The position numbers and the translations under genes are program-made. The notes under the pieces are model-generated. The model was not told the DNA's origin and searched no databases. It was given only the letters and a program-made list of their open reading frames with translations. DNA of 38,162 nucleotides from a virus: positions 1-38,162 of the IMG/VR virus record IMGVR_UViG_3300046648_000140, one strand, 5' to 3'. Shown one piece after another: positions 1,854 to 21,369 of this stretch. Each line of letters begins with the position of its first letter. Within the stretch, counting starts at the first letter, position 1.

Positions 1854-2945
1854 ATGGTGACTTACGGGTCTGTCTGTAGTGGGATTGAGTCGGCTTCTGT
1901 CGCCTGGGCATCACTCGGTCTTAAACCGGCGTGGGTCGCCGAGGTCGCCCCCTTCCCCAGCGCGGTGCTTGCGTACCGCTTCCCCGAGGTGCCGAACCTC
2001 GGGGACATGCGCAACCTCGGCCGGCTTGTCCTTAGCGGCAAGATCGAAGCGCCAGACGTTCTAATCGGTGGGACGCCTTGTCAGGCGTTCTCTCTTGCAG
2101 GGATGCGCGAAGGGTTGGCCGACGAGTGCGGCGCTCTCGCGATCAAATACGTGGAGCTGGCAGATGCAATTGACCATGTTCGAGGACTCGCCGGAAAACC
2201 TCCCGGCATCACCGTCTGGGAAAACGTGCCCGGCGTCCTCGCCGACAAGGCGAACGCCTTCGGATGTCTACTTGCGGCGCTTGTTGGGGAAAGCTGCGAG
2301 CTGCAACCTACAGGGCGCAAATGGACAGACGCTGGTGTTGTGTATGGACCCACGCGGGCAGTCGCTTGGCGGGTTCTTAATGCCCAACATTTCGGAGTGG
2401 CCCAACGGCGTCGCCGCCTGTTCGTTGTCGCAAGCGCTCGAAAAGGATTCGACCCCGGAGCGGTACTTTTTGACCTCGGAAGCGTGCGCCGGGATTCTGC
2501 GCCGCTTGAGCCGCAAGGGAGTGACCCCGAGGTTCGCCAGTGCCGATGCGGCTACGCGTTTCCAGTCGGCCTTGGCTTCCTCAAGTGCCCCAAGTGCAAG
2601 CGCACCGTAGCGGTTGAGGCGCCTGCATGGTGGAACGGTTCGGGGGTAAGTCAAACCCTCGACGCCGTACTCGACAAGCACCAAGCGCTGCCGGAAAAAA
2701 ACCGGTTCCCTGCCGTACTCGATAACGGCCGGCTCCGGTTTATTACACCGAGGGAAGCCGAGCGCCTGCAAGGGTTGCCCGACGACTTCACGCGTATTCC
2801 GTGGCGCGGCAAACCCGCCGAGCAATGTCCCGACGGGCATCGGTATAAGGCAATCGGCAACACTAAGGCGGTCCCGGTAGTTCGTTGGCTCGGCCGTCGC
2901 TTACTTGCGGTAATCAATCAAGATGGGGTGAACGATGGAGCCTGA
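1854..2945 (+). CDS. DNA C5-cytosine methyltransferase
   Basis: This is a 363-aa SAM-dependent DNA cytosine-5 methyltransferase. Motifs in order are: motif I region TYGSVCSGIESASVAW (3-18); motif IV GGTPCQAFS (72-80) with nucleophile Cys76; motif VI ENV (123-125); motif VIII QRRRRLF (184-190); and motif IX/X RFITPREAERLQG to AIGNTKAVPVVRWLG (295-347). The target-recognition part is short and holds a zinc-ribbon-like CxC...CxxC (Cys230, 232, 245, 248). The likely role is protection from host restriction or preparation of cytosines for further modification. ATG 1854 is chosen over an in-frame TTG at 1824 because a G-rich RBS precedes it. A second credible gene lies inside it in the +1 frame (2164-2610). 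Confidence 0.93.
   Translation: MVTYGSVCSGIESASVAWASLGLKPAWVAEVAPFPSAVLAYRFPEVPNLGDMRNLGRLVLSGKIEAPDVLIGGTPCQAFSLAGMREGLADECGALAIKYVELADAIDHVRGLAGKPPGITVWENVPGVLADKANAFGCLLAALVGESCELQPTGRKWTDAGVVYGPTRAVAWRVLNAQHFGVAQRRRRLFVVASARKGFDPGAVLFDLGSVRRDSAPLEPQGSDPEVRQCRCGYAFPVGLGFLKCPKCKRTVAVEAPAWWNGSGVSQTLDAVLDKHQALPEKNRFPAVLDNGRLRFITPREAERLQGLPDDFTRIPWRGKPAEQCPDGHRYKAIGNTKAVPVVRWLGRRLLAVINQDGVNDGA
2164..2610 (+). CDS. Overlapping gene embedded in the methyltransferase (+1 frame)
   Basis: A 148-aa frame lies entirely within the methyltransferase gene. ATG 2164 has GGAG at 2153-2156, a seven-base spacing, so it carries its own good ribosome-binding site. The product begins MQLTMFEDSPENLPASPSGK and has a middle with QTLVLCMDP and MPNISEWPNGVAACSLSQ. 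Near the C-terminus it has RYFLTSEACAGILRRLSRKG. From memory these blocks match a small phage protein family usually annotated as hypothetical and found with phage C5 methyltransferases. The family's function is unknown; the FL...ACAGILRRA block looks helical. The recognition and the RBS favour true dual coding, but selection on this frame has not been tested. Confidence 0.6.
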   Translation: MQLTMFEDSPENLPASPSGKTCPASSPTRRTPSDVYLRRLLGKAASCNLQGANGQTLVLCMDPRGQSLGGFLMPNISEWPNGVAACSLSQALEKDSTPERYFLTSEACAGILRRLSRKGVTPRFASADAATRFQSALASSSAPSASAP

Positions 2946-3180: not shown

Positions 3181-4146
3181 CTTGTCGGCGAGGCTCTCGG
3201 GGCTCAGGTGGGTATAGCGCTTGAGCATCGCCAGCGTCTTATGCCCGGTAATCGACGCGACTGTCATTATCTCGAAACCGCGCTCGAATAGTCGGCTAGT
3301 CGCTTCGTGGCGCAAGTCGTGAAAGCGAAGGCCGACCACCCCCGCCGTCTTACATGCGAGGCGAAAGTAAACGGTGACAAGTTGGGGAGCCAGACTGAAT
3401 ACCTGCCCGTCAATTCGCGCTGGCAAACTCTTTAGAAGTTCCCGCGCTCTTGTCGAAAGCGGCACCGAACGGCGGTCGCCGTTCTTCGTGTCTTCGAGAT
3501 AAATTACTTTCCCACGAATTTGTTCCCGCCGTAACAAAACTAACTCCGAACGACGCATTGCCGTATCTGCGGCGAGTTCGATAATGATCGGCATCTCCAT
3601 ATGAATCTCGGCCGCAGCCGCATAAATCTTTTTGAGTTCGAGAGTAGTCGGGCGGCGGTCGCGTTCTTTAGCACCTTTCGGTAAACGGATGCCTGTGCAG
3701 GGATTGTGTAAGCCGGTCATACGCCACTCTTTAGCGGCGACCGTAAACAGGTGGGAGATGATAGCGAGTTCAAGCCGGACGGTTGCCGTCGATACTTCAT
3801 CATCGAGGCGCTCGTCGCGATACTCGGCCATATCTGAGGAGTCAATTGCTGAGAGAGTTTTCTCGGCGAGGGGATGTTTAAGCCACTTCTTAATCCTGAC
3901 CGCTTCCTGCGTCGCCCCCTTTTTTTTGTCGCTAACTTCCTTGAGGTACTTATTGAGGGCGGTGGCTAAAGTTGTCCGGTCTTGCTCGCGTTTATCGACG
4001 TGCTTCGAGCGGGCTATATCGCCTTCAATACCGTCAGCCCAGCGCTGCGCCTCGGCTTTCGTGTCGAAGGTAGCTGTCATGGTCTGATAGCCCTTCCGGC
4101 GTATCTGAGCTTTCCAAGCGTTGCCGCGCTTTGTGTAGGTTGCCAT
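3172..4146 (-). CDS. int: Tyrosine-recombinase integrase
   Basis: This 324-aa phage integrase has all the catalytic residues of the tyrosine recombinase family: Arg198 (AMRRSEL), Lys221 (DTKNGDRR), His276 and Arg279 (RFHDLRHEA), His302 (ITGH) and Tyr311 (KRYTH). The N-terminal 50 residues (NAWKAQIRRKGYQTMTATFDT region) look like the arm-binding domain and residues about 60-150 like the core-binding SAM-like domain. It should recombine attP with attB in the tRNA-Leu gene. The attP core and arm repeats lie just upstream of its start. It is transcribed away from attP and converges on the excisionase-like gene, the usual arrangement. Confidence 0.96.
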   Translation of the reverse strand: MATYTKRGNAWKAQIRRKGYQTMTATFDTKAEAQRWADGIEGDIARSKHVDKREQDRTTLATALNKYLKEVSDKKKGATQEAVRIKKWLKHPLAEKTLSAIDSSDMAEYRDERLDDEVSTATVRLELAIISHLFTVAAKEWRMTGLHNPCTGIRLPKGAKERDRRPTTLELKKIYAAAAEIHMEMPIIIELAADTAMRRSELVLLRREQIRGKVIYLEDTKNGDRRSVPLSTRARELLKSLPARIDGQVFSLAPQLVTVYFRLACKTAGVVGLRFHDLRHEATSRLFERGFEIMTVASITGHKTLAMLKRYTHLSPESLADKLG

Positions 4147-20076: not shown

Positions 20077-20105
20077 AAAAAGTGGGGCGACCCGAAGGCC
20101 GCCCC
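20077..20105 (-). terminator. Terminator after the capsid gene
   Basis: On the minus strand there is a 9-bp stem (one G-U pair) with a UUCG tetraloop, GGGGCGGCC and GGTCGCCCC (20084-20105). It is followed by AC and TTTTT (20077-20081). It is a strong-looking intrinsic terminator only 10 bases after the capsid stop, within an operon that must continue. Confidence 0.85.
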
Positions 20106-20114
20106 GGTTGTTCC

Positions 20115-21326
20115 TTAGGTCGCGGAATGCGCGTAATACTTCACGGCCGCAGTATCAACGAGGTTGCCACCCGAACGGATGAACGCGAGGAAACCGACCT
20201 GCCCTTTACTGGCGTAGGCGGAATCGTCGAAGCGCATCAAGGACACCGACATGGCGTCGCGGATGATGTACTTTTTCATGTCGCCGTAAATGATGGACTT
20301 GGCGTTCGCGGCCGGGGTCGCCATGTCGTTGTTGATTACGACCGACTTGCCGAGGAGCAAGTCTGGAGCGCCAGCGGTGATACCGGCCTCGTAACCCGGT
20401 GTCCAGATTGGACGGCCAGCGGTATCCTTCAGCTTACGCAGCAGGCCGCGAACGGTCTGGTTAAACATGAATTTGCATTCGCCGCCGAGCTGGTAAGCCT
20501 CGTTAACGGACTCCAGCAAATCGACCAGATCGTCATAGATGACGGTCAAGGTTTGGCCGGTGGTGCCGACCTTGCCGGACGACGCGCCAGTCACGATACC
20601 GCGAGGCTGCGCGGTCCCGGTCCCGGTAGTGAAGTGCTGGTTAGTAATACGGCCGATACGCTCGATGATGCGCGCACGCACGAACGCCTCAATGTCGACG
20701 CTCGAATCTTGCAGCAGCTCGATTGGAACGGCGATAACCTTGGAGCTGTATTTGTATACGTTCAGACCCACGGTGCCGAAACTCGGGTCGAGCGCCGCAG
20801 CCGCAGTGTTTTCCGCGAGCAGCTCGCCAACTTCGGCGGTGCCGTCGCTGGTTGGGTAGCTCAACGGATTACCCTGCGCGGTGGTCAGGAGTTGCGCCAC
20901 GCCGCGCATACCGCCGAAGTCCTTCAGGGAGTTGATCAGCTCGGAAGCTACCAACGCCGGAACGGTATAACCGCCCTCGCTCGGGGTGGTGGTCGACATG
21001 GTGTTGTAGAGCTTGGTCGCTTGCTCGGCGCTCAAACCCTTTTCACCGCGACGCATCCAAGTGTCGAAAATCTTGATGTCCGACAACAGGTCGTCGGTAT
21101 CGCGCTTGGCTTTCGGGTCACGGTGTTGAATGTGGTCCTCGGCGGCGAGGTCGAGCAGCTTTTGCTCGCGCTCGATACGCTGATCGATTTCCACGATTTC
21201 GCCGGTCAGGCCGTCATACTTGGTCTGGTCCTCGGCGCTCCACTTCTTATCCTTGGAATCGTCCAACAGTTTGCGCGCTTCGATAGCCAGACCGTTACGG
21301 CGCTCGCGCTGTGCTTGGATAGTCAT
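20115..21326 (-). CDS. Major capsid protein, HK97 fold
   Basis: This is a 403-aa HK97-type capsid protein. The first 105 residues or so are charged and helical (RKLLDDSKDKKWSAEDQTKY, VEIDQRIEREQKLLD) and match the scaffolding delta domain removed in HK97. The mature part begins near TMSTTTPSEGGYTVPALVAS and includes FTTGTGTAQPRGIVTG and RSGGNLVDTAAVKYY, typical of the family. The upstream ClpP-like protease would trim it. The gene is bracketed by two intrinsic terminators. Confidence 0.95.
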   Translation of the reverse strand: MTIQAQRERRNGLAIEARKLLDDSKDKKWSAEDQTKYDGLTGEIVEIDQRIEREQKLLDLAAEDHIQHRDPKAKRDTDDLLSDIKIFDTWMRRGEKGLSAEQATKLYNTMSTTTPSEGGYTVPALVASELINSLKDFGGMRGVAQLLTTAQGNPLSYPTSDGTAEVGELLAENTAAAALDPSFGTVGLNVYKYSSKVIAVPIELLQDSSVDIEAFVRARIIERIGRITNQHFTTGTGTAQPRGIVTGASSGKVGTTGQTLTVIYDDLVDLLESVNEAYQLGGECKFMFNQTVRGLLRKLKDTAGRPIWTPGYEAGITAGAPDLLLGKSVVINNDMATPAANAKSIIYGDMKKYIIRDAMSVSLMRFDDSAYASKGQVGFLAFIRSGGNLVDTAAVKYYAHSAT

Positions 21327-21345
21327 TTCATTTTTCTCCGTGCAT

Positions 21346-21369
21346 AAAAAAACCCGCCGATGGCGGGTT
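21346..21369 (-). terminator. Terminator between protease and capsid genes
   Basis: On the minus strand there is an 8-bp stem, AACCCGCC-ATC-GGCGGGTT (21351-21369), followed by a further run of T (21345-21350 region). It lies between the protease stop and the capsid start. It could attenuate transcription, end a processed RNA or be passed by an antiterminated polymerase. Confidence 0.8.

Follow-up and report, generated by a model that had tools for sequence, protein, structure and literature searches.

A conserved overlapping gene in the +1 frame of phage C5-cytosine methyltransferase genes

The gene for a C5-cytosine methyltransferase (MTase) in a 38-kb virus record (IMG/VR record IMGVR_UViG_3300046648_000140; the whole stretch of 38,162 nucleotides is referred to here as the window) contains a second open reading frame (ORF), in the +1 frame, that is almost certainly a genuine and ancient protein-coding gene. 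Its frame is open beyond chance, synonymous change in the MTase frame is constrained along it, and it has initiation signals of its own, as befits a conserved same-strand overlapping gene. Few long, strongly constrained overlaps of this kind are known from double-stranded DNA genomes, and they are a matter of dispute.

Upstream of a divergent integrase, the window encodes a YqaJ-type exonuclease, an SSB, and the C5-cytosine MTase, with portal and tail genes further on. The MTase gene (1854-2945, plus strand; the ORF opens at TTG 1824 and the likely start is ATG 1854) defines frame 0, matches PF00145 and phrog_116, and contains motifs IV, VI, VIII, IX, and X. Motifs VI (ENV, 2220-2228) and VIII (QRRRR, 2403-2417) lie within the overlap, and motifs IX and X, neither of which is present in the +1 ORF, lie in frame 0 downstream of 2610. 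The +1 gene (2164-2610, plus strand) runs from ATG 2164 to a stop codon at 2608-2610, encodes 148 aa (MQLTMFEDSP...SAP), and has homologues in the same register; since 2164-1824 leaves a remainder of 1 when divided by 3, it is +1 relative to the MTase. A Shine-Dalgarno (SD) sequence, GGAG (2153-2156), precedes ATG 2164 with 7-nt spacing. Re-examination of the sequence thus bore out the original prediction in its coordinates, frame, product length, and SD, and in placing motifs VI and VIII in the other frame over the same bases. Other features seen here are a zinc-ribbon-like CxC...CxxC stretch in the frame-0 target-recognition region (2542-2607, CRCGYAF...CPKCKR), a 190-aa antisense ORF that also spans the overlap (2268-2840, minus strand) and is probably a by-product of composition, and, elsewhere in the window, two ORFs of ~400 aa that oppose each other almost wholly on the two strands (20082-21347, plus; 20115-21326, minus).

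Openness of the +1 frame was scored by codon resampling, with frame-0 amino acids held fixed and synonymous codons redrawn. The +1 match region of the window was open in 1% of resampling trials, with 3.6 stops expected. The first codon-resampling test used loci chosen by their +1 frame and was therefore biased; it was repeated on the Firmicutes-type and Streptococcus-type sets, the unbiased sets being MTases gathered by the frame-0 protein only, blind to +1. All 79 window-type MTases selected in this way and mapped to loci, the most distant sharing 34% MTase identity, had a +1 homologue in the same register, and the +2 frame was open in 0 of these 79 loci. Among Firmicutes-type MTases (clade 2; gathered with a Streptococcus phage MTase and dereplicated, n=51), the +1 region was open in 51/51 vs 13.6 expected (27% each), and the +1 ORF was ~130-136 codons long in every member. 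The Streptococcus type (clade 3, 42% G+C) was open in 45/45, vs 0.37 expected in all. As a negative control, ordinary cellular C5-MTases from bacterial genomes were open in 1/49 vs 0.44 expected. The conservation of the +1 frame that was to be looked for in homologous phage MTases holds in all three types.

Frame-0 synonymous change was ~0.9 of expectation outside the overlap and 0.2-0.4 inside it, recovering past the +1 stop, which is the depression foreseen for the MTase frame. The edges of the suppression coincide with the ends of the +1 ORF; clade 3, whose +1 ORF is longer and starts much further upstream, shows suppression from that start, near codon 45, onward. Synonymous change in the C-terminal core of the +1 product was 0.39 of expectation in the unbiased window-type set, 0.23 in clade 2, and 0.23-0.27 in clade 3. 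Third-position diversity in frame 0 (the second position in +1) fell in window-type genes from 0.62 upstream to 0.26 in the core, where first-position diversity (the +1 wobble position) was higher, at 0.37.

The aligned +1 start is ATG in 137/144 scorable cases among +1-selected loci. In the window clade, selected by MTase (40 distinct sequences), ATG was kept in 34/40 vs 12.8 expected and an SD of at least 4 nt in 23/40 vs 4.3 expected, and in Firmicutes-type genes the SD-forming arginine codon is AGG in 76/76, vs 14% AGG among the other arginine codons of the same genes; the sequences are related, so the ATG, SD, and AGG counts are not independent events. Codon choice preserves the +1 start signal, and the gene has its own conserved initiation signals beyond what frame 0 needs. 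The conserved ATG and SD favour internal initiation over frameshifting.

In translated searches the window +1 protein matched 120 phage records and 526 plasmid records, the latter mostly from E. coli. The gene is spread over phages of Proteobacteria, Firmicutes, Akkermansia, Caulobacter, and mycobacteria, and hundreds of phage, prophage, and phage-plasmid records carry it. Phage P1 is among them: its dmt gene, whose annotation mentions a bifunctional MTase and nothing else, carries the +1 ORF (3501-3971 of locus L003). At 168/168 +1-selected loci a C5-MTase lies in the -1-related frame, and no homologue found in any set lies away from a C5-MTase gene. The original prediction had assigned two remembered sequence blocks to a separate phage protein family; every homologue found is a +1 gene inside a C5-MTase gene, never apart from one, so the protein does not form such a family. 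The expectation that annotation would miss the gene was correct, as it is nearly unannotated across phages. The claim that two constrained proteins sharing the same bases are a rarity stands in part: the constrained second gene is real, and its very wide phage range means that it is no rarity of this phage.

Searches of the +1 family against Pfam, NCBIfam, and PDB sequences gave no match. The search proposed for the 148-aa product accordingly yielded no Pfam or NCBIfam family and a partial match to one small phage family, phrog_16143 ('DNA methyltransferase', 139 positions), which matches the +1 ORFs of Javan25 (E 3e-17) and Blautia phages (E 6e-15); the window protein itself had no significant match to it (E 0.21). 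Some +1 products are therefore probably in databases already under an MTase label, the overlap with the MTase gene not being recorded for phrog_16143; the +1 product gp104 of Mycobacterium phage Thibault is annotated as hypothetical. In a control search phrog_16143 matched 6/14 control genomes, archaea included, so relatives, whether in +1 or in frame, may also exist outside phages. Within the open-access literature, no description was found of a gene overlapping the MTase of P1 or other phages; a rumen-phage paper that used similar terms proved unrelated.

The conserved C-terminal core of the window protein (residues 84-119, AACSLSQALEKDSTPERYFLTSEACAGILRRL..., 2413-2520, plus strand) has the lowest synonymous change and is modelled by AF2 as a helical hairpin. 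Applied to 49 ordinary C5-MTases, the +1 core profile gave a match in 36, and in 22 of these the best one lay 5-60 aa beyond motif VIII, vs 0-8 in a control of 20 shuffles; the segments matched include LGSILEPHVDEKYTLTPK and, in E. coli Dcm, VTLAQLLDPMVEAKYILTP. With hhalign, a subset of ordinary MTases picked with the same profile scored 40.4 in profile-profile alignment (highest decoy, 18.4), enteric Dcm by itself 24.1 (highest decoy, 22.0), and the full set of 49 scored 20.9, so that homology is suggestive and not proven. The +1 core thus appears to resemble the segment by which ordinary C5-MTases enter the target-recognition domain (TRD) after motif VIII. The match is offset in position, since the segment lies ~28-60 aa after motif VIII in ordinary enzymes and overlaps motif VIII in +1. 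Frame-0 proteins of the phage families had no positive-scoring match to the core profile, and the segment is absent in frame. The segment is in frame in Citrobacter phage Miller, where stops close the +1 frame; in Streptococcus phages IPP48 and CHPC1282 it occurs in +1 alone, and in Thermus phage P74-26 in neither. Only the C-terminal hairpin is confident in the AF2 models, the rest of the protein being predicted disordered, and Foldseek with the AF2 model found no relative; the predicted hairpin and disorder are compatible with, and no proof of, a protein that needs a partner.

The N-terminus of the window protein carries QLTMF (residues 2-6, 2167-2181, plus strand), a putative QLxLF-like sliding-clamp-binding motif resembling the bacterial consensus QL(S/D)LF, in which much variation is tolerated (PMC9690074). 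Window-type N-termini open with M-QLTMF or near forms, and a loose QLxLF-like motif is present in 46/72 distinct sequences vs 1.5 expected from the frame-0 residues. Streptococcus-type +1 ORFs have QMSLF, QMNLF, or QLTLF in 13/17 vs 1.1 expected, at a different MTase position from the window type, and the +1 ORF of Omegavirus NihilNomen has QLDLF. The motif was found in 0/279 frame-0 MTases. It is absent from Firmicutes clade 2, and the P1 ORF starts only with MQLTT, so clamp tethering would be a trait of some lineages. On the strength of the QLxLF-like N-terminus, we regard a role as clamp tether as possible rather than probable. In Pseudomonas phage D14E, a gene with a DNA polymerase III beta-clamp domain (L001:636-1310) lies two genes upstream of the MTase.

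We propose that the +1 ORF would be translated by internal initiation from the MTase mRNA, at its own SD and ATG, and that its product, synthesised alongside the phage C5-MTase, would serve that enzyme as a small second chain. The C-terminal helical module would replace, in trans, the segment leading from motif VIII into the TRD, and the disordered N-terminal part, often QLxLF-like, would anchor the complex to the beta sliding clamp. Methylation of new phage DNA would then take place during synthesis, as by DNMT1 with PCNA. From the conservation, constraint, start signals, MTase linkage, and in-frame absence of the segment, all seen directly, we infer that the product may bind the MTase, be needed for its activity, and bind the clamp. 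A partner role is probable, given the strict linkage, the split MTases of actinophages in the same +1 register, and the placement of the core profile after motif VIII; the sequence does not itself call for a partner, since no catalytic motif is missing from the frame-0 MTase. The explanation as a whole, from internal initiation to a core acting in trans and N-terminal clamp docking, we hold with somewhat more confidence than doubt.

The main competing account accepts the overlapping gene and takes its product to act independently of the MTase, for example in anti-restriction or host takeover, having merely been born there by overprinting. Novel overprinted proteins are often accessory, and the small size of the protein, the variation of its N-terminus among lineages, and the position of the gene within a recombination module (YqaJ, SSB) would all suit such a role; however, homologues are never found away from a C5-MTase, and the core looks like a segment of ordinary MTases that frame 0 lacks, which makes this account unlikely, if worth serious weight. 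A product made by +1 ribosomal frameshifting, with no internal initiation, would be an MTase variant whose C-terminus is the +1 core, and the MTase-like core does adjoin motif VIII. This is very improbable, as the ATG and SD are conserved beyond the needs of frame 0, a +1-frame stop often lies just a few codons upstream of the ATG, and a shift at motif VIII would remove the motif VIII strand and the ~28-aa spacer of ordinary enzymes.

Translation of the +1 frame, or the RNA itself, might instead tune MTase output while the peptide has no function, since an internal SD could slow or seed ribosomes. Regulation alone needs neither the conservation of +1 amino acids across phyla nor the wobble at the +1 third position, both of which are seen, and we give this explanation very little weight. 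Least credible of all is the view that there is no second gene, and that the open +1 frame simply follows from codon bias and the conservation of the frame-0 protein. Part of the MPNISEWPN block does follow from the frame-0 NAQHFGVxQRR, but the codon-resampling controls, the sharp-edged synonymous suppression, and the negative control with ordinary C5-MTases refute it. A small second MTase polypeptide, initiated internally, remains the reading we prefer.

The gene recurs in hundreds of records, where standard annotation overlooks it. If its product is a subunit, many phage C5-MTases expressed alone may seem inactive or mis-specific for want of it, and the clamp motif, if functional, would tie phage DNA methylation to replication. 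We consider it rather doubtful that the proposal applies in its broadest form, whereby the common C5-MTase of phages from many bacterial phyla, P1 included, would be a two-polypeptide enzyme whose +1 small subunit gives the target-recognition entry segment in trans, with a clamp tether in many lineages. The overlap in P1 opens the question to direct test in a classic phage.

Among known systems, the hidden HNH endonucleases of the ShiLan type are likewise out-of-frame genes inside a phage methylase gene; they code for HNH nucleases on mobile insertions, start at GTG, and lack an SD (PMC11855218). The window gene, in contrast, overlaps the conserved MTase motifs VI and VIII, has a clear SD, and is universal in its clades rather than patchy (79/79 relatives), and none of 27 +1 members had a Pfam nuclease match, on which grounds a hidden HNH insertion was rejected. 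As a separate observation, an HNH-bearing element breaks up the Omegavirus MTase of Mycobacterium phages Thibault and Schatzie close to motif VIII, and the +1 core persists downstream of it (gp104 in Thibault). The proposed way of working resembles that of DNMT1, a C5-MTase brought to the sliding clamp PCNA (PMC9690074); in the phages a separate polypeptide would bear the motif, and the likeness is an analogy only.

Split C5-MTases come nearer. Actinophages Vanisoa, FoulBall, Dorothy, and Renna12 have an M.AquI-like split C5-MTase whose second half is a separate annotated gene in the same +1 register, starting inside the 3' part of the first gene with overlaps of ~20-209 nt. The second chain of M.AquI and of these actinophage enzymes (phrog_1008) comprises the TRD and motifs IX-X, whereas the window +1 ORF stops before these; in Omegaviruses, alpha, beta, and the +1 ORF are three items. 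In M.EcoHK31I, the gene of the large chain also encodes the small one, in a different frame. That enzyme, which by its description can be set beside the +1 protein, likewise has a large, nearly complete C5-MTase chain and a small second polypeptide (PMC3404938), and at all 168 loci here the predicted second polypeptide is encoded together with the large chain. The M.EcoHK31I small chain carries motif IX, whereas in the window motifs IX and X are both in frame 0, and the +1 protein has instead a segment like the TRD entry, its relatives often having a clamp-like motif. A beta subunit carrying motif IX was accordingly rejected as an identity for the +1 protein, which, having no motif IX, is not classed as a member of the M.EcoHK31I and M.AquI kind. 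By analogy, M.EcoHK31I and M.AquI nevertheless appear to be the closest precedents for the +1 arrangement.
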